DNA of 21,177 bases from a virus: positions 1-21,177 of the IMG/VR virus record IMGVR_UViG_3300021335_000960; one strand, 5' to 3'. Below are positions 2,355-18,806 of this stretch, in pieces. A model generated the notes under the pieces. The model did no database searches and was not told the origin of the DNA. It saw only the letters and a list, made by a program, of their open reading frames with translations. The translations under genes were made by a program, and so were the position numbers. The number at the start of each line of letters is the position of its first letter. Within the stretch, counting starts at the first letter, position 1.

Positions 2355-2918
2355 ATGAATTATAATTTCATAGATCACAAGTCAGACATTCAGTATCTTA
2401 TACATGCAATTAATTTACATGGTCAAAATTTAATAGGTGCTGAAGTCGGATTGTTTAGAGCAGAAAGTTTTTGTACAATGTTACAAAACTGCCCTAACAT
2501 AACAAAGCTCTATGGAATTGATAACTGGCAACCTTACACAGACTATATCGGTTCTATGCCAATGGAAGTTGATGAAAAGATGATTGAACTTGTAGAAATA
2601 CAAGCCATGCATAACTTCAAATGGACAGGTGAAACACAAAGAGGAGAAATATTAAAAATGACTAGTATGGAAGCATCTAAAAAAATAGATGATGCTAGTT
2701 TAGACTTTGTGTTTTTAGATGCCTATATTGATCAACAAAGTACTGTGAACGATCTAAATACTTGGTATACAAAAGTAAAACCAGGAGGATTGTTTAGTGG
2801 ACATGATTGGGATAGTCCTACTGTAGTAGATTGTGTAACACAGTTTAGGAAAGATAATAATATACAGACTAATTTAAGTTGCTACGGTGACACATGGATA
2901 TGGAAAAAAGATGAATAA
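2355..2918 (+). CDS. Class I SAM-dependent methyltransferase (Methyltransf_24-like)
   Basis: 187 aa. Motif I is GAEVGLFRAES (28-38) and the acidic residue after strand 2 is in YGID (53-56). A motif IV-like DFVFLDAYID lies at 117-126, followed by KPGGLFSGHDW (142-152). This is the layout of small Rossmann methyltransferases in the Methyltransf_24/cephalosporin-hydroxylase-like group, which often modify sugars or small metabolites. It starts 3 nt after the clamp gene and ends 8 nt inside the dpdA-like gene. The acceptor is unknown. Given the sugar-activation genes just upstream, a glycan substrate is possible, but a modified-base or protein substrate cannot be excluded. Confidence 0.8.
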   Translation: MNYNFIDHKSDIQYLIHAINLHGQNLIGAEVGLFRAESFCTMLQNCPNITKLYGIDNWQPYTDYIGSMPMEVDEKMIELVEIQAMHNFKWTGETQRGEILKMTSMEASKKIDDASLDFVFLDAYIDQQSTVNDLNTWYTKVKPGGLFSGHDWDSPTVVDCVTQFRKDNNIQTNLSCYGDTWIWKKDE

Positions 2919-4452
2919 AGACTTAACAGCAACACAAAAAGATTATGCACATTTCTTGCCTGCACTTAGTGGGTTTTATGCAACGTATGTAGGCAAGCAA
3001 CGTTTTGACAATTATGTAGATCCAGCAAGGATTCCTAGTAATTTTAAACATGGTGTTGAAAGTCTAAACTATCTTAATAAAGAGCAAGGTGCATTTACTT
3101 ACAAATGGAGTTTGTATAGTGCAGGACATGCCAACTTAGATACAACTATTGAAGTACCTAAAGAAGATATGGTACGTAATAGAGATAGAGAAAACACTTG
3201 GTTACTTGGTGACTCAGGTGGTTTCCAAATTGGTAAAGGTGTATGGGAAGGTGATTGGAAAGATCCAAACTGTCCTAAAGCACAAAAGAAACGTGATGGC
3301 GTTCTAAAATGGATGGACGCTTATATGGACTATGGTATGGTACTTGATATACCTGCCTGGGTAGCACGTTCACCAGAAGGAGCCAAAGCAACAGGTATTG
3401 ACAACTATCAAGATGCCGTAAATGCAACACGTATTAACAATGACTATTGGATGAAAAATAGAACTGGTTCGTGTAAGTTTCTAAATGTATTACAAGGTGA
3501 AACACATACTGATGCTGAAGATTGGTATCAGCAAATGAAAGACTATTGCGATCCTAAGAAATATTCAGATCATTTTAACGGATGGTCAATGGGTGGTCAG
3601 AATATGTGTGATATTCATCTAGCGTTACTACGTCTTATTAGTTTACGTTATGACGGACTTTTAGAAAAAGGATTACATGATGTAATGCACTTCTTAGGAA
3701 CGTCTAAACTAGAGTGGGCTACATTGCTTACAGATGTACAACGTGCAGTTAGGAAACATCATAATGAAAACTTTACTATTACTTTTGATTGTGCTAGTCC
3801 TTTTCTCGCAACCGCGAATGGACAAATATACATTCAGAATGAAACAGCGGATCGTTCGAAATGGACATATAGAATGGTGCCAAGTGTTGACGATAAAAAG
3901 TATGCTACAGACAACCGCCTGTTTAAAGACGCTGTTATATCAGATGGGATATTTAAAAACTTTGAAAACAGCCCAATCACTGCCGAACTTAAAGTATCAG
4001 ACGTTTGCACTTATGCTCCGGGAGACTTAAATAAAATCGGCAAAGAAGGAAAAACATCGTGGGATAGTTTTTCATATGCGATCCAGATGGGTCATAATGT
4101 ATGGAGTCATATAAATGCAGTACAAGAAGCAAACAGACAATACGACAATGGAGTCATTCCGTCAATGCTTGTCGAAGAACGTTTTGACAGGTTATTTTTT
4201 AGAGACATTGTGGAGGCAATATTTGCAACTGATAAAAGAGACGAAGCGATAGCAGTCGCAAACGAATTCCGTAGATATCTAGACACTATAATTGGCACAA
4301 GAGGTGCAACAGGCAAACGTATGACTAATGCCCAAACTTATTTCAACAATTTGTTTGATACAGTAGAAGAAACAACTGACGAAATAGTTGACGGCGAATT
4401 TTCAGAAGAACAAGAAAATAAGTTGGAGGAAATGGAGAATGAGCAATTATGA
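2911..4452 (+). CDS. dpdA: DpdA-like 7-deazaguanine DNA transglycosylase (TGT superfamily)
   Basis: 513 aa from ATG 2911, overlapping the previous stop by 8 nt. A GTG at 2887 would give only eight extra residues. The tRNA-guanine transglycosylase motifs appear in family order: GDSGGFQ (100-106), MVLDIP (143-148), LQGE (194-197), GWSMGG (224-229), HFLGTS (260-265) and FDCASPF (292-298). D101 and D293 would correspond to the TGT general base and nucleophile. The TGT C-terminal CxCxxC zinc site is not recognisable: only C in VSDVCTY and HN in MGHNVW (about residues 378 and 408) remain nearby. DpdA proteins use this fold to swap guanine in DNA for a 7-deazaguanine base. The window also encodes FolE, QueE and a QueD-like protein, supporting DNA rather than tRNA modification. 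The acidic tail is phage-specific. Confidence 0.8.
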   Translation: MNKDLTATQKDYAHFLPALSGFYATYVGKQRFDNYVDPARIPSNFKHGVESLNYLNKEQGAFTYKWSLYSAGHANLDTTIEVPKEDMVRNRDRENTWLLGDSGGFQIGKGVWEGDWKDPNCPKAQKKRDGVLKWMDAYMDYGMVLDIPAWVARSPEGAKATGIDNYQDAVNATRINNDYWMKNRTGSCKFLNVLQGETHTDAEDWYQQMKDYCDPKKYSDHFNGWSMGGQNMCDIHLALLRLISLRYDGLLEKGLHDVMHFLGTSKLEWATLLTDVQRAVRKHHNENFTITFDCASPFLATANGQIYIQNETADRSKWTYRMVPSVDDKKYATDNRLFKDAVISDGIFKNFENSPITAELKVSDVCTYAPGDLNKIGKEGKTSWDSFSYAIQMGHNVWSHINAVQEANRQYDNGVIPSMLVEERFDRLFFRDIVEAIFATDKRDEAIAVANEFRRYLDTIIGTRGATGKRMTNAQTYFNNLFDTVEETTDEIVDGEFSEEQENKLEEMENEQL

Positions 4453-4648
4453 TAACGAGGCAGACAAAATATGTGCAAGGCTACAAGAAGTAGAACGGAA
4501 ACATAGATCTCTTGACAAAGAGATTGAAATGCGTTATAATAATGTTACAGTTGATGAAGAAGTTCGCAGAATGAAAACTATGAAATTATATTTAAAAGAT
4601 GAAATTTATAGATTAAACGAAAGACTAATACAGGCAAAACTAAAATGA
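4439..4648 (+). CDS. DUF465/YdcH-like coiled-coil small protein
   Basis: 69 aa from ATG 4439, overlapping the dpdA stop by 14 nt. GGAGGA at about 4425-4430 serves as ribosome-binding site; an upstream in-frame ATG at 4388 lies deep in dpdA and lacks one. The protein is highly charged and helical: LQEVERKHRSLDKEIE, then VRRMKTMKLYLKDEI. This matches the E. coli YdcH/DUF465 pattern (KHxxLDxEI ... MKxxKLxLKDE). The family forms helical hairpins and has no firmly established biochemical role. A perfect sigma70 promoter lies inside the gene (4512-4540) and would drive the next gene. It ends with a 4-nt overlap with the gene at 4645. Confidence 0.75.
   Translation: MSNYDNEADKICARLQEVERKHRSLDKEIEMRYNNVTVDEEVRRMKTMKLYLKDEIYRLNERLIQAKLK
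4512..4540 (+). promoter_or_regulatory. Perfect sigma70-type promoter inside the DUF465 gene
   Basis: TTGACA 4512-4517, 17-bp spacer, TATAAT 4535-4540. The hexamers encode parts of LDKE and RYN of the DUF465 protein, so both functions share the DNA. It would start transcripts near 4547, about 100 nt before the gene at 4645. Confidence 0.75.
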
Positions 4649-5157
4649 AAAGAACATACGAAACAGGCATAGCAGAGGACGTTGTTTTCTTTACAGGTAT
4701 CGAAGTAGAAAAAACTCCTGCTCACGGAATGGATACGCTATTTGTTACAGGTGTACAACCATGTGATACTATACAAGAAAAATTAGAAGATAGACAGCAC
4801 ATTTTCTTTGGTGCTAATCACAGTTTTGAACCACTTAATGAAGAAGAATGGAATAAATGGGAAAGAATGATTAAGGCCTTCTTAACTGCGGGTAAGTTAT
4901 GTTCTCTTGATATTCCAATTAATTATGCAGAAGACTTTCTTGAAAGTGGACTTACAGAATATGAAAACTTTATTCCACAACTACGTATTCCGTTGCCTTA
5001 CGTAAAACAGTGGAACTACAACACTATGTTGAAGATTGATGATAAAGGATTTAAGGCAACTAATCCAGGTGTATGGTGCCATAGTTTACATGATCTAATG
5101 GATAGAGAAAAATTCACAGATTGGACAAAGTATGGCCTTGACAAGCCAGTAAAGTGA
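4645..5157 (+). CDS. Conserved phage protein of unknown function, between dpdA and queD-like
   Basis: 170 aa with no catalytic motif that I can name. Distinct segments are HIFFGANHSF (52-61), a middle ENFIPQLRIPLPY, LKIDD near 128, and a Trp-rich C-terminal part with TNPGVWCHSLHDL and FTDWTKYGLD. The sequence resembles a conserved unknown that I recall from marine T4-like phages, but I cannot name a family. It is soluble, with no signal peptide or membrane segment. It sits between the transglycosylase and the QueD-like gene, has its own perfect promoter upstream, and carries another in its last 20 nt. A role in deazaguanine synthesis or delivery is only an inference from position. Confidence 0.8.
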   Translation: MKRTYETGIAEDVVFFTGIEVEKTPAHGMDTLFVTGVQPCDTIQEKLEDRQHIFFGANHSFEPLNEEEWNKWERMIKAFLTAGKLCSLDIPINYAEDFLESGLTEYENFIPQLRIPLPYVKQWNYNTMLKIDDKGFKATNPGVWCHSLHDLMDREKFTDWTKYGLDKPVK

Positions 5158-5166
5158 GTGTATAAT
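5138..5166 (+). promoter_or_regulatory. Perfect sigma70-type promoter upstream of the queD-like gene
   Basis: TTGACA 5138-5143, 17-bp spacer, TATAAT 5161-5166. The -35 lies in the end of the preceding gene. The -10 overlaps the first in-frame ATG (5165) of the following frame, so transcripts from here, starting near 5173, would need a later start codon. Confidence 0.8.
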
Positions 5167-5212
5167 GGATGATATAATAAACAATGAACGATACTACGAA
5201 GGAATGATGCGT

Positions 5213-5671
5213 ATGATGAGAGAAGAAGATAAAAAAATCTATATGGAAAACAAGGTAAATAGATCTATATGGGTAACATTCAAGAAAGAGGGTATACACA
5301 AATATCCAGCGGCACTAGATGATCCGAAACTTGCAACAGGCGATTGGGACGATGTTTCGTTTCTTGGTTATCCTCACCGTCATATTTTTCATTTCAGGGT
5401 GCAAATCGAAGTGCGCCACAACGATAGAGATATCGAATTCATCCAGTTCAAAAGATGGCTCGAAAGACTCTATTCAGGAACAGATAGTAACGGAGGTGAA
5501 GCGAAGGGCTCAACCGACGCTGACGTGCTCCTTTTAGATTACAAGTCGTGCGAAATGATTGCGGACGAGTTGTATGAGAAGATCTCTGCAAAATATCCTG
5601 GCCGTTATGTAGAGATTGAAGTTGCCGAAGATGGCGAAAACGGCTGTAACATAAAATATCCAAAACCCTAG
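5213..5671 (+). CDS. queD: QueD/PTPS-like T-fold protein (6-carboxytetrahydropterin synthase-like)
   Basis: 152 aa from ATG 5213. I chose this start because GAAGGA (5198-5203) precedes it at good distance, and the earlier in-frame ATG at 5165 lies inside a -10 box; starting at 5165 would give 168 aa. The order of features fits PTPS/QueD. FKKEGIHKYP resembles FxxAHRLP (H29), YPHRHIFHFRVQIEV resembles LHGHxFxVxLEI (H55, H57), DIEFIQFK (73-80) resembles DFxxLK, SCEMIADELYEKI resembles PTSExLAxWI, and EVAEDGENGC resembles the VxET strand. The three histidines could bind zinc. The catalytic cysteine that QueD has between the first His and HGH is absent. FolE, QueE and DpdA-like proteins in the window support a pterin/deazaguanine role. 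A divergent activity is possible. Confidence 0.6.
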   Translation: MMREEDKKIYMENKVNRSIWVTFKKEGIHKYPAALDDPKLATGDWDDVSFLGYPHRHIFHFRVQIEVRHNDRDIEFIQFKRWLERLYSGTDSNGGEAKGSTDADVLLLDYKSCEMIADELYEKISAKYPGRYVEIEVAEDGENGCNIKYPKP

Positions 5672-5695
5672 ATGCTGTTAAAAGGAATAGAAACA

Positions 5696-5938
5696 ATGGC
5701 AATCAAATTTGATCGAGAAGCATATAAGACTATTTTCGACGATCTTGAAACCTTTAAAGAGTTTTGTGCAACTGCATATAACTTAGGTTTCGAAAGTGGA
5801 TTTAAGTTCGATGAAAAGAACTTATACAACAGTAAGAGCTACGAGTGGAGAGCTTTTCAAAATTATTTAAAATATGGGAAACCCCCTAAACCACGTAATA
5901 AAAACGCAGGACGTTTTAATAGTAACCGGAGAAACTAA
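5696..5938 (+). CDS. Small conserved phage protein, unknown function
   Basis: 80 aa. ATG 5696 is preferred over the in-frame ATG at 5672 because AAAGGAA (about 5680-5686) lies at the right distance, and ATG 5672 abuts the previous stop without a ribosome-binding site. The N-terminal two thirds are aromatic and acidic (FDDLETFKEFCATAYNLGF), followed by a WRAFQNYLKYG segment and a basic PKPRNK...NRR tail that could contact nucleic acid. The stop and the next start form TAATG at 5936-5940, indicating translational coupling to the glycosyltransferase. No family recognised. Confidence 0.7.
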   Translation: MAIKFDREAYKTIFDDLETFKEFCATAYNLGFESGFKFDEKNLYNSKSYEWRAFQNYLKYGKPPKPRNKNAGRFNSNRRN

Positions 5939-6984
5939 TGACTATTCATATTGTAGACATCGAAGCAGTAGATACACGTTATACTAAGCAATGGAAGGAA
6001 TATCTTCCAAAGCAACTGCGACGAGCTACAAATGAAGAAGTAGTTGTTATAAGTGGAGGAGAAACGCCTCAGGCTACAACGCCTGGGGCATTTCTTAACT
6101 TCGGCGGTACAAACGTATACAAGTCTAAACAACTTGAACAAATAGGAAAAATGTTTTGTAATGGAACTGTTAAGGACGGTGATTATTTTCTCTATACTGA
6201 TGCCTGGAATCCTACAGTGGTACAACTACGCTACATGGCAGAGTTACTCGGTGTTGATATTTGCATTGGTGGTTTGTGGCATGCAGGTAGTTATGATCCG
6301 CAAGATTTTTTAGGCAGACTTATAGGTGATAAACCTTGGGTAAGACATGCTGAACAAAGTATGTATGAATGCTATGATGATAATTTTTTTGCTAGTGAGT
6401 TTCATATAGACTTATTTGCAAAAAGTTTAGATATAGATGATACAAAGACTCATCGTGTAGGTTGGCCTATGGAGTATCTAAAGAACAGTTTAGACAGTTA
6501 TAAAAATATGGAGAAGAGGGATCTTATATTGTTTCCTCATAGAGTTGCTCCAGAGAAACAAGTTGAAATATTTAGAGATCTTAAAACACAACTTCCACAA
6601 TATGATTTTATAGTTTGCCAAGAGCAAACGCTTACAAAAAATGAATATCATAATATGTTAGGTGAAGCAAAACTAGTATTCAGTGCTAACTTGCAAGAAA
6701 CACTTGGTATTAGTTGGTATGAAGGTGCATTAGTAGATACTATTCCAATGGTGCCTGATAGATTAAGTTATAGTGAAATGGCACTTCCTGAGTTCAAATA
6801 CAACAGTGATTGGACTATTGACTATGATTCATATATGCAAAACAGAGACAAAGTAGTAAAGCAAATTGTTGAATACATGGAAAATTATAAAGACTTTTTA
6901 CCTAGCATACAAAAGCAGGTTACTAAATTACATAAGGAGTTTTTTAGTGGTAAAGAATTATATAGGGTAATTGCAGATGAATGA
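5938..6984 (+). CDS. GT-B fold glycosyltransferase (family 4-like)
   Basis: 348 aa. The C-terminal half has the features of retaining GT-B enzymes. FPHRVAPEKQ (199-208) is a donor-domain loop with the typical R/K, and NLQETLGISWYEGAL (251-265) contains an E-x7-E pair (E254/E262) that in GT4 enzymes contacts the nucleotide-sugar. An IPMVPDR loop follows. The N-terminal acceptor domain (1-185) has YTDAWNP and GLWHAGSYD and is not diagnostic. It is likely to transfer a sugar from an NDP donor to phage DNA, protein or a host glycan; the acceptor is unknown. The sugar-activation genes at 1-1626 could supply donor. It is coupled by TAATG to the small gene upstream and overlaps the next gene by 8 nt. 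Confidence 0.75.
   Translation: MTIHIVDIEAVDTRYTKQWKEYLPKQLRRATNEEVVVISGGETPQATTPGAFLNFGGTNVYKSKQLEQIGKMFCNGTVKDGDYFLYTDAWNPTVVQLRYMAELLGVDICIGGLWHAGSYDPQDFLGRLIGDKPWVRHAEQSMYECYDDNFFASEFHIDLFAKSLDIDDTKTHRVGWPMEYLKNSLDSYKNMEKRDLILFPHRVAPEKQVEIFRDLKTQLPQYDFIVCQEQTLTKNEYHNMLGEAKLVFSANLQETLGISWYEGALVDTIPMVPDRLSYSEMALPEFKYNSDWTIDYDSYMQNRDKVVKQIVEYMENYKDFLPSIQKQVTKLHKEFFSGKELYRVIADE
6061..6094 (+). repeat. Imperfect inverted repeat inside the glycosyltransferase gene
   Basis: GAAA-c-GCCTCAGGC (6061-6074), loop TACAAC, then GCCTGGGGC-a-TTTC (6081-6094). In RNA this gives a 13-pair stem with one G-U pair and one C-A mismatch, unusually GC-rich for this DNA. It lies about 120 nt into the coding sequence. 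Confidence 0.6.
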
Positions 6985-7306
6985 TGACGATTTAACTTAT
7001 ACTGTAAAATTAGATAGTTTAGATGATACTATACCTGTATCGTATGAAGCTGGTGCTACAGTAGGAGGCCCAAGTACAATTACATTAACAGGCACTACAA
7101 ATGATGATTTTAGTTATACGTTTGATACAACTTATGCAGGTGAATATGACAAGTACATAGATCCTCAGCAAGTAGAAAATATGTGTGAAGAATATCCAGC
7201 ATTGCAAAAAGTTTGGCGTAACTTCAAAAGCCTATACGACATGACATTACAAGACTACAAAGGCAAGCAAAAGGCAGGAGAATTAGATGATGAAATTCCT
7301 TTCTAA
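6977..7306 (+). CDS. Small acidic conserved phage protein, unknown function
   Basis: 109 aa from ATG 6977, overlapping the previous stop by 8 nt. A TTG at 6971 would add two residues but has no support. The N-terminal half is Asp/Thr/Gly-rich with TVGGPSTITLTG and looks beta-structured and flexible. The C-terminal half is helical, with VENMCEEYPALQKVWRNFKSLYDM followed by LQDYKGK. A central YDKYIDP segment links them. The helical part resembles a conserved unknown that I recall from marine T4-like phages. No enzyme motif, signal peptide or membrane segment is visible. It overlaps the cupin gene by 20 nt. Confidence 0.7.
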   Translation: MNDDDLTYTVKLDSLDDTIPVSYEAGATVGGPSTITLTGTTNDDFSYTFDTTYAGEYDKYIDPQQVENMCEEYPALQKVWRNFKSLYDMTLQDYKGKQKAGELDDEIPF

Positions 7307-7802
7307 TTTAATGGACAAACTTGGCAGACGCCGAGTAATTACAGATAGAACAGGTAAGATTCCATATCTTATACGCTACTATCTATTTTTAAAAGAACGT
7401 AAGAACTTTCCTTTTAACATTACGTTACATAAAGTATTAGTAAGTGATGAACCTACACTACATGATCATCCTTGGAATTGGGGTGCTTTTATTTTAAAAG
7501 GTGGATATTGGGAACACATTCCTATTATTTCAAAAGAAGGTGCAGTTGTAGGATCAACAAGAGTTTGGCGTGGTCCTGGTTCTATTAGATTTAGAAAAGC
7601 AGATGACTTGCACTGGTTAGAACTTGCTAAAGATGAACAAGGAAATGAAATACCGTGTACTAGCATTTTCTTTATGGGACGTAAACAAAAGGAATGGGGC
7701 TTTGTACGTTTTGTACATGCAACAGCAAACAACTGGCAAAATGCTGGTTACAGATGGGTACACAACGAAACTTACTTAAACGAGAAATATAAAAATGATT
7801 AA
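7287..7802 (+). CDS. Cupin-fold putative metal-binding protein
   Basis: 171 aa, starting ATG ATG at 7287/7290 after AGGAG (7276-7280). LHDHPWNWGAFILKGGYWEH (58-77) holds a cupin-1-like H59xH61...E76 set. DDLHWLEL supplies the later histidine (H109) expected in cupin motif 2, followed by IFFMGRKQKEWGF. Cupins of this layout bind Fe, Mn or Zn and act as dioxygenases, isomerases or small-molecule sensors. The substrate is unknown. It resembles an uncharacterised cupin that I recall from tailed phages. It sits between a small acidic protein and a phosphoribosyltransferase with overlaps on both sides, so it probably belongs to the same transcript. A link to nucleotide or sugar chemistry is inferred from neighbours only. 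Confidence 0.7.
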   Translation: MMKFLSNLMDKLGRRRVITDRTGKIPYLIRYYLFLKERKNFPFNITLHKVLVSDEPTLHDHPWNWGAFILKGGYWEHIPIISKEGAVVGSTRVWRGPGSIRFRKADDLHWLELAKDEQGNEIPCTSIFFMGRKQKEWGFVRFVHATANNWQNAGYRWVHNETYLNEKYKND

Positions 7803-8325
7803 GAAACATTATTACAGTTGGACTGATGTTGAACGTATGTGCGTCAGTATTGTCAATCAAATGTACAAAGACGAATGGCGTCCTAACTACATAGTAGGAA
7901 TTACACGAGGTGGTAATGTACCTGCTACAATTATTTCGAACATGACTGGCATACGTTGCGAAGCACTAAAAGTAAGTCTACGTGATGATAATAGAGAAAG
8001 TGAAAGTAACTGTTGGATGGCTGAAGATGCACTTGGATATCCTCATTGTGATACTGGAGATAATAAAAAGAATATTCTAATTGTAGATGACATTAACGAT
8101 ACTGGTGCAACATTCAATTGGATTATGCAGGATTGGCCTGCTGGGTGTTTACCTGACAGCCCAGAGTGGAATAATGTTTGGACTCATAATGTACGTTTTG
8201 CAACACTTACTGAAAATTTAGCAAGTGACTTTAGTAATGTAAGTTATACCTGTCACGAAGTAAACAAAGCAGAAGAAGATGTTTGGCTTGTTTACCCATG
8301 GGAAAATGTTGCAGACTATGCGTGA
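7795..8325 (+). CDS. Type I phosphoribosyltransferase (purine PRTase-like)
   Basis: 176 aa. NILIVDDINDTGATF (93-107) is the 13-residue PRPP-binding signature of type I phosphoribosyltransferases (hydrophobic run, DD, TG). VGITRGGNVPA (34-44) is the PPi loop as seen in xanthine-guanine and hypoxanthine enzymes (RGGxxPA). These enzymes join a purine base to PRPP to give the nucleotide. The specific base cannot be read from sequence. In this setting it could salvage guanine from degraded host DNA, or guanine released when a DpdA-like enzyme swaps bases in DNA; the latter is speculation. It overlaps the cupin gene by 8 nt and the DNA glycosylase gene by 8 nt. Confidence 0.85.
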   Translation: MIKKHYYSWTDVERMCVSIVNQMYKDEWRPNYIVGITRGGNVPATIISNMTGIRCEALKVSLRDDNRESESNCWMAEDALGYPHCDTGDNKKNILIVDDINDTGATFNWIMQDWPAGCLPDSPEWNNVWTHNVRFATLTENLASDFSNVSYTCHEVNKAEEDVWLVYPWENVADYA

Positions 8326-8719
8326 TGATTTAATGGTACAACAACAGGTAGACAATGTATGGCAACATATGGTTGGTGTTATTTGTTTGAACTGTACAAA
8401 CCGTAAACAAGTTAAGGCAGTACTACCTACATTCTTTACTAAATGGCCTACACACAAAGCATTTTTACATGCAACTAAGAATCAAATTGAAGACATTATT
8501 GCACCTTTAGGTATGCGAACGGTAAGAGCAAACAGACTGTATCGAATGAGTGAACAGTTTGAAGACTGGGACGGAGAAGATGCTACAGAACTATATGGCA
8601 TAGGCAAGTATGGTAGTGATAGTTATGAACTATTTTATAAAAAAAGAGTGCCAGAAAATATTGGCGATCATGAATTAAAACGTTATGTAGAGGAAGAATT
8701 TTATGAAACCGTGGACTGA
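8318..8719 (+). CDS. HhH-GPD DNA glycosylase, MBD4-like
   Basis: 133 aa from ATG 8318, overlapping the previous gene by 8 nt; an in-frame ATG at 8279 lies further inside that gene. It aligns along its whole length with the catalytic domain of vertebrate MBD4. NVWQHMVGVICLNCTNRKQV resembles DPWKLLIATIFLNRTSGK, IIAPLGMRTVRANRL resembles LLKPLGLYDLRAKTI, and LYGIGKYGSDSYELF (92-106) is almost identical to the MBD4 helix-hairpin-helix. GDHELKRY then places the catalytic Asp at D117. MBD4 removes T or U opposite G in CpG context. It lacks the endonuclease III iron-sulfur cysteines. Possible roles are repair of deaminated bases or excision of modified bases in host or phage DNA. Confidence 0.85.
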   Translation: MRDDLMVQQQVDNVWQHMVGVICLNCTNRKQVKAVLPTFFTKWPTHKAFLHATKNQIEDIIAPLGMRTVRANRLYRMSEQFEDWDGEDATELYGIGKYGSDSYELFYKKRVPENIGDHELKRYVEEEFYETVD

Positions 8720-9050
8720 TGTAGTAGTTGACACAAAAGACTTTACAGTTTACAAAGACGGATATCCTGTTACAGAAGGACATATTCTTTTTGTACCAAA
8801 AGAACAAACATGGCAGGATTTAAGTAAGTGTTTCGAAGCCGCATACAAATGGGGCTATGATTGGGTTGATCGCGGATATTGTGATGCGTTCAACATTGGA
8901 CAGAATTGTGGAGAGGCCGCAGGTCAAACTGTTGACTATCCTCATGTACATCTCATTCCTAGGCGCAAGGGTGATATGGAAGATCCGCGAGGAGGAGTGC
9001 GTCACGTAATACCTGAAAAGGGAAACTATAGGAAAGGAGATTTATGTTGA
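8703..9050 (+). CDS. HIT-family nucleotide hydrolase/transferase
   Basis: 115 aa. TEGHILFVPK (24-33) and NIGQNCGEAAGQTVDYPHVHLIPRR (64-88) match the HIT domain, with H81xH83 and IPR at the end. In the canonical HxHxH triad the first His is Tyr79 here. The middle His, which carries out nucleotidyl transfer, is present (H81). HIT proteins cleave nucleoside phosphoramidates or dinucleoside polyphosphates, or transfer UMP/AMP. The length is typical for a minimal HIT domain. It overlaps the glycosylase gene by 17 nt and the next small gene by 7 nt. A housecleaning or nucleotide-activation role beside the PRTase is plausible, but the substrate is unknown. Confidence 0.85.
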   Translation: MKPWTDVVVDTKDFTVYKDGYPVTEGHILFVPKEQTWQDLSKCFEAAYKWGYDWVDRGYCDAFNIGQNCGEAAGQTVDYPHVHLIPRRKGDMEDPRGGVRHVIPEKGNYRKGDLC

Positions 9051-9250
9051 AGGAAATCATGATTAGTGCGGCTAAAAAGCACGCCGAAGCAGAGATTGAA
9101 TTGCATAAGGCTAACATCGAAGTCTACATGAGACAAGTAGTAGGTATAGGCGAACACAGCGATATTATCGAAACTATCCAAAAAGAGTTAGATGCTATGG
9201 CTACTGCAAGCGATAGACTAGAAATGCTTAATAAACATTTCAATGACTAA
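9044..9250 (+). CDS. Small helical conserved phage protein, unknown function
   Basis: 68 aa from ATG 9044, preceded by AAAGGAGA (9033-9040). Almost all helix: an Ala/Lys/Glu-rich first part (AKKHAEAEIELHKANIEVYM), a VGIGEHSDI turn, then a second charged helix ending in LNKHFND. It resembles a small conserved unknown that I recall from marine T4-like phages. No motif suggests an activity; a helical-hairpin interaction partner is the most that can be said. It overlaps the HIT gene by 7 nt and the SGNH gene by 8 nt. Confidence 0.7.
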   Translation: MLKEIMISAAKKHAEAEIELHKANIEVYMRQVVGIGEHSDIIETIQKELDAMATASDRLEMLNKHFND

Positions 9251-10079
9251 GAGAACACTATTTTTAGGAGATAGCCACAGTCACGGTTATGCCGAGATTG
9301 ACGGCGAAGTAAAGTTCTGGCAGGAATATAACTATGGAGAAATTTACTCTAAATTAAATAATACTCCTGTGGCTATCTACAGCATTCCCGGAGGATGCAA
9401 TAAAAAATATCCAACATGGCTAAAAGCCATGTTGAACTACTATGAAAATAATATATCAGAAGTTTTTGTACAAGCAACATATTGGAATAGATATCTAATT
9501 GCTTGTAGTAGAAATTTAGATGTAGGTGACGGTATTCAACCAGATCATTTTTCAAGAGGCCCAAAACAACCTGTTGCAAAGGATGATCCTGAATTAGTAG
9601 ATAGATGGACTGATGAATTAGTTTCTGAAGAACATGCAGAACTAATTGAACAGTGCCGACCTGAGAACTTTGAACAGTTCAAAGGGTTTGAATATTCTGA
9701 AAGAAGAGGAATGACACATGACTGGGGTCCTTTTCAAGAGAAGTATCAATATACAAAGTTGTGGCATGAAAGTGCTACACATCTACAATATAGGGAATGG
9801 TGTGCTGATTACTTGTTAATGGATTTTATCTGTGCCAAGTTAAACATTCCCATGTATGTATGGTCTATTAATGATAGAGTGTTCATACCTAAGCATAAGA
9901 ACTTTTATGGTGACTTTGCAGTAACTGGTTTTGCACCTATGAGTGCAGAGCAATTCATCTTAAAAGAACATAATATAAACATAGAAACAGACGAATATAG
10001 GTATGACGGAGAGCATTATACTACCGAAGTCCATGAAATAATTGCAAAAGATTACATAGAATACGTAAAAAATGCTTGA
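9243..10079 (+). CDS. SGNH/GDSL-type hydrolase
   Basis: 278 aa. Block I is LFLGDSHSHGY (6-16), with S11 as likely nucleophile. Block V is DGEHY (255-259), giving the Asp/His of the catalytic triad (D255, H258). Between them YSIPGGCNKKY may supply the block II glycine and QATYWNR the block III Asn. Members deacylate or deacetylate lipids and glycans; phage members often act on host surface polysaccharides or decorate particles. No signal peptide is present. The long Trp/His-rich middle region is not diagnostic. A perfect promoter for folE begins within its stop codon region, and the gene holds a 9-bp perfect inverted repeat at 9412-9434. Confidence 0.75.
   Translation: MTKRTLFLGDSHSHGYAEIDGEVKFWQEYNYGEIYSKLNNTPVAIYSIPGGCNKKYPTWLKAMLNYYENNISEVFVQATYWNRYLIACSRNLDVGDGIQPDHFSRGPKQPVAKDDPELVDRWTDELVSEEHAELIEQCRPENFEQFKGFEYSERRGMTHDWGPFQEKYQYTKLWHESATHLQYREWCADYLLMDFICAKLNIPMYVWSINDRVFIPKHKNFYGDFAVTGFAPMSAEQFILKEHNINIETDEYRYDGEHYTTEVHEIIAKDYIEYVKNA
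9412..9434 (+). repeat. Perfect 9-bp inverted repeat inside the SGNH hydrolase gene
   Basis: CAACATGGC (9412-9420), loop TAAAA, GCCATGTTG (9426-9434). It could form a stable hairpin in RNA. No T-run follows, so it is not a typical terminator. It lies about 170 nt into the coding sequence. Confidence 0.7.
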
Positions 10080-10104
10080 CACAGACCTAAATAAAGTGTA
10101 TAAT
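10076..10104 (+). promoter_or_regulatory. Perfect sigma70-type promoter upstream of folE
   Basis: TTGACA 10076-10081, 17-bp spacer, TATAAT 10099-10104. The -35 overlaps the stop codon of the SGNH gene. The predicted leader of about 38 nt ends in CGGAGAA before the folE ATG (10149). The rest of the 69-nt gap holds only a weak GGCA/TGCC stem; no riboswitch was recognised. Confidence 0.85.
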
Positions 10105-10148
10105 ATAACAATATTGGCAATCCACTGCCTTAACATCGGAGAACGAAA

Positions 10149-10838
10149 ATGAGCAAAGTAGAACAAATAAAAAAGAAATTAGAAGATGCAGGTATTAGAT
10201 ACTGGGCAAATGATAATATTAGTGCAGTTCTTGAAGATGGTGATAAGCAACAATTAATTGAAGAAGCAATTCCTGCTTTTGAAAATGTGTTGCAGACACT
10301 ATTAATTGATACAAAAACAGATCCTAACAGTCAAGATACAGCAAGACGTATGGCTAAGATGTATATCAATGAGATTATGTCTGGTCGTTATGATAAAATG
10401 CCTAACCCAAGTGCATTTCCTAACTACATTGAAGGTGGTTATGAAGGTATGCTTGTTGTGCGAAGCGAACTTACAAGTTTGTGTTCGCATCATCATCAGA
10501 CTGTAAAAGGTGTTGCATACATTGGAATCATTGCAGGCCCTAAATTACTAGGACTAAGTAAATATACCCGAATTGCACAATGGTGTGCTATGCGAGGAAC
10601 ACTACAAGAAGAACTTAATGTTATGATTGCAGATGCAATTCAAGAACAAACAGGTAGTGAACACGTTGGTGTCTATGTACAAGCAACACATGGTTGTTGC
10701 GAAAATAGAGGTATTAGAGCAAAGAGTAGTTTGACACAAACAACTGTATTGCGTGGTGCTTTCAGCAAAGACCCTGCAACTAAGAAAGAATTTATCGATA
10801 ACGTAAAACTGCAACAACAGTTTGCTTGTGGAGTATAA
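10149..10838 (+). CDS. folE: GTP cyclohydrolase I (FolE)
   Basis: 229 aa, ATG 10149 after CGGAGAA. It converts GTP to 7,8-dihydroneopterin triphosphate, the first step of both folate and 7-deazaguanine synthesis. Zinc ligands are visible: LCSHHH gives C112 and H114/H115 (canonical CEHH), and HGCCENRG gives C183 in the HxCMxxRG motif with R187. LGLSKYTRIAQW (134-145) and QEELNVMIADAI match the FolE core strands and QERLTxQIA helix. The N-terminal part contains DTARRMAKMY, matching the DTPxRVAKM segment. Length is normal. It is the first gene of a run folE-queE-unknowns-RNase H under its own perfect sigma70 promoter, and ends 1 nt before the queE start codon. Confidence 0.93.
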   Translation: MSKVEQIKKKLEDAGIRYWANDNISAVLEDGDKQQLIEEAIPAFENVLQTLLIDTKTDPNSQDTARRMAKMYINEIMSGRYDKMPNPSAFPNYIEGGYEGMLVVRSELTSLCSHHHQTVKGVAYIGIIAGPKLLGLSKYTRIAQWCAMRGTLQEELNVMIADAIQEQTGSEHVGVYVQATHGCCENRGIRAKSSLTQTTVLRGAFSKDPATKKEFIDNVKLQQQFACGV

Positions 10839-10839
10839 T

Positions 10840-11769
10840 ATGCCAGAAGTTTTAGAAAAACCTAAAGAAAAGGTTAAGCAACTCAGGTACTCCGAAGCAT
10901 TTTATAGTGTACAAGGTGAAGGTAAATTTGTAGGAGTCCCAAGTGTATTCCTACGTACTTTCGGTTGTAACTTTCGTTGTATGAATTTTGGTACAGGTGA
11001 GAAAAAAGATCGTTGGACTTTACATAAAGAAGGCAAGCGATATAATGATGAAGTAAAGGACCTTATTGATAATAAAGTCCACGAAACTACAAAAGAGTTT
11101 AACGACTTGCCTATTGTACATACAGGTTGTGATACTTATGCAAGTATCTATCCAGAATTCAAACACTTCAATATGCTTAAAACAGTAGATGAAGTGGTTG
11201 AACATTTGTTATCACTTACTCCTAATGGTAAGTGGACACAAGACAATGGACAAGACATACACTTGATAATGACAGGTGGTGAACCTTTGTTAGCGTGGCA
11301 GAGGCTTTATATTGATTTGTTCGAACATCCACGTATGCGAGATCTAAAAAATGTTACATTTGAAACAAATACTACACAAACTCTATATCCAGAGTTCTTC
11401 CAGTATCTCAGCAATCAAGACAGGTTTGAAGTCACTTGGAGTTGTTCCCCGAAACTTGCAGTTAGCGGAGAACCTTGGGATACTGCTATTAAGCCTGATA
11501 TTGCTTTGCAGTATAGTCGTGTTACTGGTAGTGACATTTATCTTAAGTTTGTTGTCGCTACTCAAGATGACTTTGATGAAGTTACGAGAGCTGTGGAGGC
11601 TTATAGAAATGCCGGGGTACAATGTCCGGTATATCTTATGCCGCTTGGCGGACGTTCGGAAGAATATAACCTCAATGTTAAAGAAGTCGCCGAAGCATGT
11701 ATGGAGCGAGGTTGGCGCTTCACACCAAGACTCCACATTAGCCTATTCGGAAATGCCTGGGGAACCTAA
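10840..11769 (+). CDS. queE: 7-carboxy-7-deazaguanine synthase-like radical SAM enzyme (QueE)
   Basis: 309 aa from ATG 10840, with GGAG at 10830-10833; a TTG at 10822 would lie inside folE. It would convert 6-carboxytetrahydropterin to CDG with a [4Fe-4S] cluster and SAM. The start FYSVQGEGKFVGVPSVFLR (21-39) is the QueE signature and MTGGEPLL is the SAM-binding GGE motif. The cluster motif is unusual: C43xxxC47 is followed by MNF where CxxxCxxC needs a third Cys. A CDTYA sequence, typical of what follows the third Cys in QueE, occurs only at 97-101, with C97. The intervening charged segment (about 51-95) thus looks like an insertion that displaces the third ligand. Length exceeds the usual 210-245 aa accordingly. 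Confidence 0.88.
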   Translation: MPEVLEKPKEKVKQLRYSEAFYSVQGEGKFVGVPSVFLRTFGCNFRCMNFGTGEKKDRWTLHKEGKRYNDEVKDLIDNKVHETTKEFNDLPIVHTGCDTYASIYPEFKHFNMLKTVDEVVEHLLSLTPNGKWTQDNGQDIHLIMTGGEPLLAWQRLYIDLFEHPRMRDLKNVTFETNTTQTLYPEFFQYLSNQDRFEVTWSCSPKLAVSGEPWDTAIKPDIALQYSRVTGSDIYLKFVVATQDDFDEVTRAVEAYRNAGVQCPVYLMPLGGRSEEYNLNVKEVAEACMERGWRFTPRLHISLFGNAWGT

Positions 11770-11776
11770 GATTGAT

Positions 11777-11875
11777 ATGCCAAAAACACATTATAAAAAT
11801 AAACAACATGAAAAAGCAATGAAGGCAGAGATAAAAGAAGATCCTTCCGATGCAATCAGAAAGGCAGGATGGTAA
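11777..11875 (+). CDS. Very small basic/acidic helical protein, unknown
   Basis: 32 aa from ATG 11777, reading a highly charged MPKTHYKNKQHEKAMKAE... sequence and ending DAIRKAGW. It fills the space between queE and the next gene, and its stop forms TAATG with that gene's ATG (11873-11877), supporting translation. An in-frame ATG at 11753, inside queE, would give 40 aa. The ribosome-binding site is weak (GGGGAAC at 11759-11765). The longer open frame further upstream is only a shadow of queE. No family recognised. Confidence 0.5.
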   Translation: MPKTHYKNKQHEKAMKAEIKEDPSDAIRKAGW

Positions 11876-12255
11876 TGCTAGATAAAATGAAAAAGGCTTT
11901 AGGTATAAAACCTAAAGAAGAAGTAAAACAAACACCAGAACAAGAAAGAAGAGCAGTTCTGGCAAAAGAAAAAGAAGCGGCTACAAAAGCAGGTAAGCCG
12001 TGGGTAGGCGTTTTAGACACACAAGTCAATCCTGATAATATTAAGAATGGTTTCTTTGAACTTGATTGGAATAATGAGTTTATTGAACAATTACTTGATG
12101 CAGGTTATTCAGGTGAAACAAACGAAGAAATAGTTGATGCTTGGTTTAGAACTATTGCAATGCAGGTTTTGGACGATCAAGGGGTTGACAAAAATCGCGA
12201 AATGGGTTATATTAATGTTAAACCATTAGATAAGGACAAGAGCGAAGTATCATGA
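11875..12255 (+). CDS. Conserved phage protein, unknown function
   Basis: 126 aa from ATG 11875 (TAATG junction); an ATG at 11869 would add two residues. The first 45 residues are lysine/glutamate-rich and probably disordered or helical. A compact domain follows: KPWVGVLDTQVNPDNIKNGFFELDWN (43-68), then EFIEQLLDAGYSG and IVDAWFRTIAMQVL. It resembles a conserved unknown that I recall from marine T4-like phages. No catalytic motif. It ends in an ATGA overlap with the RNase H-like gene. Its last 70 nt contain a near-perfect sigma70 promoter (12185-12213). Confidence 0.75.
   Translation: MLDKMKKALGIKPKEEVKQTPEQERRAVLAKEKEAATKAGKPWVGVLDTQVNPDNIKNGFFELDWNNEFIEQLLDAGYSGETNEEIVDAWFRTIAMQVLDDQGVDKNREMGYINVKPLDKDKSEVS
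12185..12213 (+). promoter_or_regulatory. Near-perfect sigma70-type promoter upstream of the RNase H-like gene
   Basis: TTGACA 12185-12190, 17-bp spacer, TATATT 12208-12213 (11 of 12 positions match). It lies within the preceding gene, about 40 nt before ATG 12252. Confidence 0.6.
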
Positions 12256-13256
12256 GTACATATATCCTAGTAGACACAGCAAATACATTCTTCCGTGCTA
12301 GACACGTAGTACGAGGTAGCGTTGATGATAAAGTTGGTATGGCATTGCATATTACACTTAACAGTGTAAAAAAGGCATGGGCCGACTTTAACGCTGATCA
12401 TGTTGTATTTTGTTTAGAAGGACGCAGTTGGCGTAAAGACTTTTATGAGCCATACAAGCGTAATAGACAAGAAACACGTGATGCAATGACTCCGCAACAA
12501 GCAGAAGAAGATAAAGTGTTCTGGGAGATATTCGATGAATTCAAAGACTTTATTGGTAGTAAAACTAACTGTACAATGATGCAACATCCGCAACTAGAAG
12601 CAGATGATCTTATTGCAGGTTGGGTACAAGCACATCCTAATGATACACACGTAATCATTAGCACTGACGGTGACTTTGCACAACTTATTGCTCCGAATGT
12701 AAAACAGTATAATGGTGTTAGTAATACTATTATAACACATGAAGGTTATTTTGATGATAAGAAACGTCAACCTATTATAGATAAAAAGACAGGCGAAGCA
12801 AGACCTGCACCTAATCCACAATGGATGCTATTTGAAAAATGTATGCGTGGTGATACAAGTGATAATGTGTTTAGTGCATATCCAGGTGTTCGTACAAAAG
12901 GTACTAAGAATAAAGTAGGTTTGCAAGAAGCATTTGCAGACAAAGATACAAAAGGTTACAACTGGAATAATCTTATGTTACAACGTTGGGTAGATCATAA
13001 CGGTGAAGAACATCGTGTACTAGATGATTATCAACGTAATGTTGTGTTGTGTGATTTATCAGCACAGCCGAATGATATTCGTGACATCATTAATGGTGTT
13101 ATTGAAGACCACATGACTCCGAAAGACGTACAACAGGTCGGCATGCGTCTTATGAAGTTTTGTGCTAAATGGGATATGCAAAGGATTGCAGAAAATGCAA
13201 AACTATATGCAGAGCCCTTAAACGCAAAATATCCCGACCAGGAGGCAACAATATGA
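12252..13256 (+). CDS. rnh: 5'-3' exonuclease / T4 RNase H-like (FEN family)
   Basis: 334 aa, start in an ATGA overlap. Metal-binding acidic clusters of the FEN/5' nuclease family are visible in order: ILVDTANTFFR with D8, FCLEGRSWRKDFYEPYKRNR (53-72) resembling the FDxxxxxxRxxxxxxYKxxR helical gateway, LEADDLIAGW (115-124), ISTDGDFAQL (136-145) and MRGDTSDNV (198-206). T4 RNase H (305 aa) uses this fold to remove RNA primers and short flaps from lagging-strand fragments. The length agrees with this, and the C-terminal third would hold the helix-hairpin-helix DNA contact. With the sliding clamp it marks the replication set of this phage. An ATGA overlap couples it to the next gene, whose AGGAGG lies in its last 20 nt. 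Confidence 0.88.
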   Translation: MSTYILVDTANTFFRARHVVRGSVDDKVGMALHITLNSVKKAWADFNADHVVFCLEGRSWRKDFYEPYKRNRQETRDAMTPQQAEEDKVFWEIFDEFKDFIGSKTNCTMMQHPQLEADDLIAGWVQAHPNDTHVIISTDGDFAQLIAPNVKQYNGVSNTIITHEGYFDDKKRQPIIDKKTGEARPAPNPQWMLFEKCMRGDTSDNVFSAYPGVRTKGTKNKVGLQEAFADKDTKGYNWNNLMLQRWVDHNGEEHRVLDDYQRNVVLCDLSAQPNDIRDIINGVIEDHMTPKDVQQVGMRLMKFCAKWDMQRIAENAKLYAEPLNAKYPDQEATI

Positions 13257-13732
13257 TAAAGGCAAAATCAGTACTAAAAAATAAGTTCTGGATAATGGAA
13301 GAAGATGGCAATAAGATTGGCACTCTACACCGTAATGAAGAAGACAAAAAGTATATGTATACTTGCAGTACCGGAACGACATTCTATGACAATGAAAAAG
13401 AATTAAACACTGCATTAGGTAATATTACTTGGAGTGTAGGAACTATTAGTGATAGTGAATCTCATATAGACAAAGAACTATATGGATTTCCTACAAGTAG
13501 TATTCCTTATAATACAATGTATGACGTACAACGTAGGTTACCATTGTTTACAAAGAGTCCTAAAAGTAAAAGTGTATATGCGGCAGGTTATTACATTATA
13601 AGATTTGACAAAGGCTGGGTAAGAAGTTTTTGTCCTAAGAGTGTAACTATTGAAAAATATCCTTTCAAAGGTCCTTTTAAAACAGACTTACAAATGAGAA
13701 CGGAGTTAAGCAATGCCAATAGAGCCGATTAA
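13253..13732 (+). CDS. Conserved phage protein, unknown function
   Basis: 159 aa from ATG 13253, with strong AGGAGG at 13240-13245; upstream in-frame codons lie inside the nuclease gene. The N-terminal 45 residues look like a small beta domain (KFWIMEEDGNKIGTL, then MYTCSTGTTFYDNEKEL). The middle has GFPTSSIPYN and the C-terminal part YYIIRFDKGWVRSFCPK followed by a Lys/Phe/Pro-rich segment. It resembles a conserved unknown that I recall from T4-like phages. No enzyme motif, signal peptide or membrane helix. It overlaps the next gene by 20 nt. Confidence 0.75.
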   Translation: MIKAKSVLKNKFWIMEEDGNKIGTLHRNEEDKKYMYTCSTGTTFYDNEKELNTALGNITWSVGTISDSESHIDKELYGFPTSSIPYNTMYDVQRRLPLFTKSPKSKSVYAAGYYIIRFDKGWVRSFCPKSVTIEKYPFKGPFKTDLQMRTELSNANRAD

Positions 13733-13952
13733 TACTGCACCAATACAACAATTTATTAATCAAGTAAAAGGCGCAGATGCTTCTCAGCAAAAAGAAGTCA
13801 AACTAGATATTATGACTGCACGTAAACTAGCACTTACACTAGGTGAAGTAATGGCACGTATGAATGGTGACTTAGAAAAGTTTGTAAAAGAAAATGCACC
13901 TAAAGGCGAAGAAACTGTAACCATCAATATGGATGGTGGACAAAGCTGGTAA
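13713..13952 (+). CDS. Small conserved phage protein, unknown function
   Basis: 79 aa from ATG 13713, inside the previous gene's 3' end. It begins MPIEPINTAPIQQFINQVKGAD and continues with a helical DIMTARKLALTLGEVMARMNGDLEKF and a short acidic tail ending INMDGGQSW. Similar small proteins occur, as I recall, in marine T4-like phages; no function is known to me. It ends the co-directional overlap run, and the next 63 nt hold a late-type promoter element and a hairpin. Confidence 0.75.
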   Translation: MPIEPINTAPIQQFINQVKGADASQQKEVKLDIMTARKLALTLGEVMARMNGDLEKFVKENAPKGEETVTINMDGGQSW

Positions 13953-18497: not shown

Positions 18498-18806
18498 ATG
18501 AAACGTAAGAAGTTTCCTGCGGATGTTATACGACAGTGGCCCGAGGTATTCAAAGACATAGATGTACATAGTGTACCGATGGAATACATCAACACTATTC
18601 ATGTAGAGTTTAAGAATGGTAAAGCGTGGGACATTGATTGTAAAGCAAAACGGAGCATATCTAATAATAACGTTACCAAAGAGCTAGAAGATTTATTCGA
18701 GCAGTACGGTGACGCTATAAAGGGTATTGACTTCCGTATCGACAGTCGAAGAGTTAAGAAAGACATTCAAAAAGAAACTAGAAAATTTCTTAAGAGACGC
18801 AAGTAA
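18498..18806 (+). CDS. Small basic conserved phage protein, unknown function
   Basis: 102 aa, ATG 18498 in a poorly marked context (only CGGA at about 18488). Begins MKRKKFPADVIRQWPEVFKDID, has IHVEFKNGKAWDIDCK in the middle, and finishes with a basic helix (RRVKKDIQKETRKFLKRRK). Resembles a conserved unknown that I recall from T4-like marine phages, perhaps nucleic-acid binding judging by charge. It ends by a one-base overlap (TAATG) with the FkbM methyltransferase gene. The 31-nt gap upstream has no clear promoter. Confidence 0.72.
   Translation: MKRKKFPADVIRQWPEVFKDIDVHSVPMEYINTIHVEFKNGKAWDIDCKAKRSISNNNVTKELEDLFEQYGDAIKGIDFRIDSRRVKKDIQKETRKFLKRRK

Follow-up and report, generated by a model that had tools for sequence, protein, structure and literature searches.

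A phage 7-deazaguanine DNA-modification module with a QueD-fold paralogue and a GT4-type glycosyltransferase, and its possible product, a glycosylated 7-deazaguanine

Introduction

Which base does a phage place in its DNA when it carries a 7-deazaguanine pathway with no visible QueC? We addressed this question for IMG/VR record IMGVR_UViG_3300021335_000960, a linear sequence of 21,177 bases that in its entirety forms the window analyzed here; since the window is the whole record, genes missing from it may sit elsewhere in the phage. A preliminary description of this 21-kb phage fragment had reported FolE, QueE, a QueD-like protein and a DpdA-like member of the TGT superfamily together, without QueC, and had read them as a dispersed 7-deazaguanine DNA-modification pathway. 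Our results bear out the joint occurrence of these proteins and support the pathway well; no QueC match was found in the window at E<=0.001, and the genes are indeed dispersed, although their order is conserved among relatives. What probably does not hold is the assignment of the QueD-fold protein as QueD and of 7-carboxy-7-deazaguanine (CDG) or preQ0 as the end product. Beyond that description, we found a glycosyltransferase (5938-6984), sugar-nucleotide genes and a purine phosphoribosyltransferase.

The module is real: it combines 7-deazaguanine DNA modification with a QueD paralogue, present where QueC is mostly missing, and with an added glycosyltransferase. The best explanation for the whole, to which we give slightly better than even chances, is that the phage makes 7-deazaguanine, which a divergent DpdA2-like enzyme inserts and a glycosyltransferase decorates with a sugar, with a hypermodified guanine in the DNA of the phage carrying the fragment as the predicted outcome. 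In the proposed scheme FolE and QueE, plus a QueD from the host or from elsewhere in the phage, would yield CDG, and the QueD paralogue (QDL) would process CDG in QueC's place, with decarboxylation to 7-deazaguanine as the likeliest reaction. In DNA, guanine would be swapped for this base by the DpdA-like enzyme, while the phosphoribosyltransferase could salvage the guanine released by the exchange. The GT4-type glycosyltransferase would then transfer a sugar onto 7-deazaguanine, either as the free base or in DNA, and the sugar donor may come from three proteins encoded upstream, a phosphomannomutase, a nucleotidyltransferase and an epimerase. Directly supported are the genes and their families, the predicted QueD fold, the conserved order and the co-occurrence.

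Results

Core genes of the pathway

All genes discussed lie on the + strand; six of them are the following:

2911-4452, + strand: DpdA-like DNA-guanine transglycosylase, type i, divergent from DpdA2 (profile links, motifs)
5165-5671, + strand: QDL, QueD-fold paralogue, proposed CDG-processing enzyme (DpdL-like decarboxylase; phrog_17812, E 2.7e-32)
5938-6984, + strand: GT4-type (EX7E) glycosyltransferase of the module (PF00534 in family members, EX7E residues)
7795-8325, + strand: xanthine/guanine-type phosphoribosyltransferase (PF00156, E 6.6e-8; NF006613, E 3.9e-13, below its cut-off)
10149-10838, + strand: FolE, GTP cyclohydrolase I (PF01227, E 2.3e-37)
10840-11769 (inferred start), + strand: QueE, 7-carboxy-7-deazaguanine synthase, phage type (phrog_2076, E 3.7e-53)

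The FolE protein has a GTP cyclohydrolase I domain with both CSHH and HGCC, which we take to be its zinc ligands, and matched the NCBIfam FolE models below cut-off. QueE likewise matched its NCBIfam models below cut-off and belongs to the phage family listed above. The cluster motif of QueE is usually a contiguous CX3CX2C; in the window protein the contiguous form is missing (GCDT is found there) and the third cluster cysteine is displaced by an insertion, giving CX3CX49C. The contiguous form was missing more widely: among 142 QueE frames, duplicates included, none had CX3CX2C, 121 had CX3C without a cysteine three residues on, and 21 did not match the pattern. For the phosphoribosyltransferase a role in guanine salvage is proposed. 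It is kept in 49 of 58 spanning relatives, by which we mean the loci reaching the given offset among 80 that were retrieved from IMG/VR with QDL as the query (the best 80 out of 592 relatives).

Neither Pfam (E<=0.1) nor PHROG, PADLOC or NCBIfam (E<=0.01) gave a match for the DpdA-like protein, and searches of PDB sequences with DpdA profiles found nothing. A tblastn search placed its relatives in 22 phage records: identity was 26-36% for 13 of them and 23-24% for the other nine, all Pseudomonas putida phages; neither nt-1 nor X1 was among the 22. Profile comparison (hhalign) linked the type i family to a DpdA2-type group (95%, 236 columns) and this group to Escherichia coli TGT (93%, 180 columns), while the direct comparison of type i with E. 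coli TGT was weak (14.7%, E 0.0018), with the nucleophile motif FDC..P aligned. Residues D101, D146, G196 and D293 were present in 19/19 relatives, Q195 in 16/19 and C294 in 15/19. The profile chain and the conserved D101, D146 and D293 uphold the earlier TGT-superfamily assignment with its core motifs, and the superfamily relationship and the nucleophile Asp could both be recognized from sequence alone. The DpdA of phage X1, a member of the DpdA2-type group, reaches nt-1 YP_008125322 in sequence search, and the latter is the DpdA2 named by Hutinet 2019 (PMC6884629). The window protein does not reach the DpdA2 subfamily in this way; judged by its profile, it is related to DpdA2 but forms a separate branch, and it is predicted to insert deazaguanine into DNA. 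A type i protein was present in 65/66 spanning relatives.

Membership in the TGT superfamily and a shared precursor pathway would also suit a queuosine-type pathway acting on tRNA rather than DNA. The preliminary description had named grouping with tRNA TGTs and action on tRNA among the outcomes that would overturn it, and we did not see such grouping: the nearest compared profile is the DpdA2-type group, whose X1 member matches the nt-1 DpdA2, and Pfam TGT was matched by 0/19 transglycosylase members scanned. On these grounds the tRNA-TGT assignment was dropped, and we regard action on tRNA as very improbable.

QDL, with a predicted QueD fold, lacks the QueD catalytic residues

The PHROG to which QDL belongs is annotated as function unknown. 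The AlphaFold2 model of QDL (pLDDT 88.7) found E. coli QueD as the best PDB match (E 2.4e-5, probability 1.00), so the predicted model has the PTPS T-fold, and the QDL profile aligned with phage QueDs by hhalign (81% over 75 C-terminal columns). In sequence searches the kinship is faint: Pfam PTPS matched 0/25 QDL members, and against PDB sequences the profile reached the QueD-type PH0634 only at E 0.39. The metal triad H45, H71-x-H73, corresponding to the H..HxH of the family, was unvarying in 25/25 members. The catalytic Cys and Asp-His, on the other hand, were absent in 9/9 QDLs aligned and present in 13/13 QueDs aligned.

We then surveyed QueD and QueC in ten named phage records searched whole, in eight of which QDL was found. 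A PTPS/QueD match over the cut-off was obtained in 10/10 records, weak in Ahp1 (E 2.4e-6) and Peetri (5.3e-5), and a separate QueD-family match accompanied QDL in 8/8 of the named QDL phages first tested (weak in Ahp1). QueC exceeded the cut-off in 0/8 QDL phages and in 2/2 records where QDL was not found; Bakedbeans, a QDL phage, gave no QueC match. The 18 longer QDL records from IMG/VR, of 39-417 kb, included 13 with a separate QueD and one with QueC over the cut-off, that match being partial.

Since QDL is without the catalytic Cys and Asp-His, and since the named phages tested encode a QueD-family protein besides it, the earlier assignment of 5165-5671 as QueD is very probably wrong, in spite of the kept fold and H..HxH; a plain QueD was rejected as a candidate on the same grounds. 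On the simplest reading QDL probably acts on CDG in QueC's stead, and its reaction is perhaps CDG decarboxylation, as suggested by the genomic context. The end product is probably neither CDG nor preQ0, the two options named earlier, given a QueD paralogue where QueC is for the most part lacking and given that the module has a glycosyltransferase of its own. In work from Cui 2023, DpdL is reportedly a CDG decarboxylase, with dDG and dCDG in phages, and no glycosyltransferase is said to figure in that description. QDL may be this DpdL, which would explain QDL in phages without QueC.

QDL is also carried by the Cellulophaga phages phiST, phi13:1 and phi19:2. Two further candidates were considered and rejected. 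Bakedbeans gp176, examined as a possible DpdA-QDL fusion, proved not to be one. A mixed enzyme of QDL and a metal-defective QueD, suggested by the many HGY sequences described next, was dropped, as HGH goes together with QDL in PA5oct and Magnetospirillum, whereas PhiXhv-12 reads HGY and has no QDL. At the HGH position of the triad, 47 distinct separate QueDs (from L006, L007, L010, L011, other QDL loci and L300) read HGY in 29 cases, HGH in 17 and HGQ in one; HGY is thus not tied to the presence of QDL, as PA5oct and PhiXhv-12 show.

A GT4-type glycosyltransferase accompanies QDL and DpdA

The window glycosyltransferase alone matched no Pfam family. Its family, however, contains the group-1 domain PF00534 (Glycos_transf_1; 14 of 28 members, best 7.8e-13), and its homologue in PAC2 is annotated as 'glycosyltransferase family 4 protein'. 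Motifs of GT4 glycosyltransferases are EX7E and R..EK; accordingly, R202, K207 and the second E of EX7E were found in 123/123 sequences, the first E in 102/123 and D instead in 21/123. The best match of the profile among PDB sequences was WlaC at E 0.02-0.03. The gene occurs in 66/69 spanning relatives.

In the 80 IMG/VR loci found by QDL, many of which are incomplete, a glycosyltransferase was present in 78 and a type i DpdA in 76, with FolE in 55, QueE in 46, the phosphoribosyltransferase in 60 and a separate QueD in 4; QueC, sought with a one-sequence profile, was present in 0/80. The reverse test started from the glycosyltransferase (best 80 of 397 relatives, three shared with the QDL-found set, leaving 77 new loci) and gave QDL in 77/77 and DpdA in 69/77; in the eight loci without DpdA, the sequence upstream of the glycosyltransferase breaks off after less than 1.5 kb.

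We distinguished three types of transglycosylase, type i being that of the window, type ii DpdA2 and type iii a shorter TGT-like protein, whose assignment rests on motifs named by eye because hhalign of type iii to TGT gave no signal. Type iii occurs with QDL in RHph_I1_18, Ahp1 and other loci. Over 234 IMG/VR loci with QDL, some of them from the same contig, the glycosyltransferase was found in 213, namely in 181/183 with type i, 8/11 with type ii, 0/13 with type iii and 24/27 where no DpdA was seen. When each QDL end was counted once with 2.5 kb on both sides, the respective values were 111/111, 4/5, 0/5 and 7/7. The difference of types i and ii vs. type iii had a Fisher p of 3e-8, a statistic that ignores relatedness.

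The association is also seen in named phages. The glycosyltransferase adjoins QDL or DpdA in Sinorhizobium phage Phosso, Pseudomonas phage PA5oct, Acidovorax phage ACP17, Xanthomonas phage X1 and Synechococcus phage BUCT-ZZ01, thus in phages of five host genera. A search of 50,697 phage records with the window glycosyltransferase found relatives in 19 (E<=1e-3), and 15 of these records hold QDL; the relatives in the four without it, the Xanthomonas phages PhiXhv-12, PhiXhv-15 and PhiXhv-16 and Erwinia phage Ep032, are distant (24%). With the X1 glycosyltransferase as the query, QDL was present in 16/16 records, including BUCT-ZZ01, which the window query had missed. BUCT-ZZ01 (L010) also carries at 9379-10722, directly before DpdA2, what looks by eye like a second group-1-like glycosyltransferase, with relatives in L093 and L257. 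From this conserved association, a glycosylated 7-deazaguanine is predicted in phage DNA.

Related clusters in PhiXhv-12 and in bacterial contigs

Among the four glycosyltransferase records without QDL, PhiXhv-12 alone was looked into, and QDL gave no match in its record. Its glycosyltransferase adjoins a glutamine-amidotransferase-QueC (Gat-QueC) fusion (PF06508, 2.3e-49; annotated aminotransferase) and a PIG-L deacetylase, and the record has matches to QueD, FolE and QueE (1.9e-42, one TAG in frame), with TGT matched only below cut-off. At 4498-13755 of this locus (L297) the Gat-QueC fusion, the deacetylase, the related glycosyltransferase and a GFO/IDH oxidoreductase follow one another; upstream of them are Leu/Phe-tRNA-protein-transferase-like and GNAT genes. 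The cluster is a candidate for a second deazaguanine glycosylation system.

GTDB contigs also yielded 22 QDL relatives. The glycosyltransferase, QDL, type i DpdA and QueD occur together in four Magnetospirillum contigs (clusters L281, L283, L284 and L285; two of the contigs share an assembly) and in one Rhodospirillaceae contig. In L284, genes for an integrase, a HEPN protein and for a CoiA-like nuclease are found close to the cluster, and the Magnetospirillum clusters are possibly a mobile or defence island. Two Amycolatopsis contigs carry QDL-QueD-QueE-FolE, in one case (L294) beside a terminase.

Weighing of the evidence

Several observations weigh against QDL replacing QueC and against glycosylation as the final step. 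Vibrio phage D479, which has QDL, shows a partial QueC match over the cut-off (69/210 positions), and X1 shows one below it; the one partial match among the 18 longer records belongs to the record of L226, and four more of these records show QueC matches below the cut-off. A separate QueD was missing from 5 of the 18 (the records of L062, L143, L184, L041 and L104), where QDL might act as QueD, QueD might be supplied by the host, or the record might be incomplete; a clean division of roles between QDL and QueD is thereby weakened. These five records, together with the QueD fold of the QDL model, favor the preliminary description's own version, in which QDL is an ordinary QueD and the base is CDG, or preQ0 made with a QueC from elsewhere. 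CDG as the base is likewise allowed by Hutinet 2019 (PMC6884629) for Bipper, a phage lacking only QueC. Given the missing catalytic residues, the separate QueD-family match in all eight named QDL phages and the rarity of QueC where QDL is present, we find this version improbable.

Other observations concern the glycosyltransferase. The type ii locus L195 is without it over 7 kb on either side of QDL, the type iii loci counted above have QDL and no glycosyltransferase, and no match to it was found in the QDL regions of RHph_I1_18, Ahp1 and phiST. Out of 26 phage records with QDL, 16 appear in the glycosyltransferase match lists of the window or X1 query and 10 in neither. The three sugar-nucleotide genes of the window were unmatched in the named-phage regions fetched, while annotated cytidylyltransferases exist in those of PA5oct and X1. 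In addition, the IMG/VR loci are best-match lists, come mostly from one broad lineage and in part from the same contig, so their counts are not independent. QDL without the glycosyltransferase is what one would expect if unglycosylated 7-deazaguanine were inserted and the glycosyltransferase acted on another base, a virion protein or a host glycan. Yet 15 of the 19 glycosyltransferase records hold QDL, PhiXhv-12 has a QueC-type deazaguanine pathway, and the gene is embedded in the module in phages from five host genera, which makes an unrelated target unlikely in our view.

The chemistry of the acceptor is a further difficulty, as C7 of plain 7-deazaguanine has, on chemical reasoning, neither a hydroxyl nor an amine, so that attachment of the sugar would require a C-glycosidic bond or a different atom. 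The lack of a usual acceptor could mean that QDL makes another intermediate with a reactive handle that the glycosyltransferase uses, or that the glycosyltransferase esterifies the carboxylate of CDG; the occurrence of its family beside Gat-QueC also indicates that the acceptor may vary. QDL is found without the glycosyltransferase in other phages, however, so its product is presumably useful alone, and no further enzyme was identified for an extra step, although the protein at 4645-5157 is unexplained. We consider a reactive handle somewhat more improbable still than an ordinary QueD.

We therefore retain glycosylated 7-deazaguanine as the preferred product. The final product, the sugar and the linkage are what we infer for the proposed base, and the reactions of QDL and the glycosyltransferase, the atom carrying the sugar and protection from restriction are put forward in the same sense. 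A more specific and broader proposal, plausible but in our judgment just short of probable, is that this phage group and the Magnetospirillum clusters carry a new base, glycosylated 7-deazaguanine, possibly a C7 C-glycoside on decarboxylated CDG, made by FolE-QueD-QueE-QDL-DpdA-GT4, and that the Gat-QueC/PIG-L version of the Xanthomonas phages leads to an amino-sugar form.

Sugar supply and other genes of the window

Upstream of and within the module the window carries five further genes of interest:

1-192, + strand: nucleotidyltransferase, cytidylyltransferase (HIGH) type, C-terminal part cut by the contig end (family by eye: LLHAGH, SSSDLRRR)
185-886 (inferred start codon), + strand: phosphomannomutase-like protein (PF03332 PMM, E 1.1e-22)
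877-1626, + strand: NAD-dependent nucleoside-diphosphate-sugar epimerase/dehydratase (PF01370, E 5.1e-24; PF16363 GDP-mannose 4,6 dehydratase, E 1.4e-19)
4645-5157, + strand: conserved module protein, 170 amino acids (67/72 spanning relatives)
5672-5938, + strand: small conserved protein between QDL and the glycosyltransferase (56/72 spanning relatives)

The 63-amino-acid piece of the nucleotidyltransferase had no Pfam match, and it may serve sugar-nucleotide or related supply. Its homologue occurs in 41/58 spanning relatives and is complete at 851-1255 of contig L109, whose glycosyltransferase is 100% identical. The phosphomannomutase is kept in 28/59 and the epimerase in 44/62 spanning relatives. 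In type iii loci these genes were found in 0/15 (phosphomannomutase), 0/15 (epimerase) and 5/15 (nucleotidyltransferase). A link of the sugar-nucleotide genes with the glycosyltransferase is suggestive and is confounded by lineage.

The 4645-5157 protein, encoded directly before QDL, is present in 67/72 spanning relatives and in Acidovorax phage ACP17. It had no Pfam match, its AlphaFold2 model (pLDDT 85.8) had no PDB match at E<=0.001 (best E 0.022, partial), and its profile led to no match among PDB sequences; it is a candidate for a further pathway enzyme.

Some other genes were noted along the window. An HhH-GPD DNA-glycosylase-like protein is encoded at 8279-8719 (PF00730, E 1.4e-5, just below cut-off; 14/54 spanning relatives), and in Phosso a gene annotated as glycosylase stands immediately before QDL. 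The Methyltransf_24 methyltransferase at 2355-2918 (PF13578, 8e-11) was found in just 2/66 spanning relatives and so looks to be outside the module. An FkbM-type methyltransferase lies at 18806-19441 (PF05050, 2e-12), an offset beyond the reach of all 80 loci, and an incomplete protein at the contig end (20743-21177; no Pfam match at E<=0.1) resembles by eye, from its histidine boxes, a fatty acid desaturase.

Discussion

Sugar-decorated phage bases are known on hydroxymethyl-pyrimidines, and the GT4 enzymes include QTMAN. We found no description of glycosylated 7-deazaguanine in DNA in the open-access literature searched. Phages 9g, nt-1 and CAjan have DpdA/DpdA2 7-deazaguanine DNA modification with bases that replace deoxyguanosine (Hutinet 2019, PMC6884629). 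The module of the window resembles these systems in FolE, QueE and a TGT-superfamily transglycosylase; it differs from them in that QueC is mostly absent with QDL in its place, and in having a GT4-type glycosyltransferase, with sugar-nucleotide genes in the IMG/VR lineage. For PA5oct, which has the module in common with the window, along with several genes around it, a deazaguanine synthesis and incorporation system has been stated (PMC7824862); the glycosyltransferase and the QueD paralogue are not named as its parts in the passages of that source used here.

Two known modifications offer partial parallels. Mannosyl- and galactosyl-queuosine of animal tRNA (PMC12518689) bear a sugar on a 7-deazaguanine-derived nucleoside, as is predicted here, but they are found in tRNA and have the sugar on cyclopentene hydroxyls, and no such ring is predicted for the phage base. 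Phage T4 has glucosylated hydroxymethylcytosine (PMC13216743), a post-replicative sugar on a modified phage DNA base as predicted here, which differs in the base, the handle and the route of incorporation.

If the proposed reading is true, glycosylation would extend to the guanine modification pathway. Two families mostly annotated as 'hypothetical' in phage records, phrog_17812 and the module glycosyltransferase, would gain a function, and 'QueD-like' annotations in phages may conceal a different enzyme. Glycosylated 7-deazaguanine would then be directly testable in cultivated phages.

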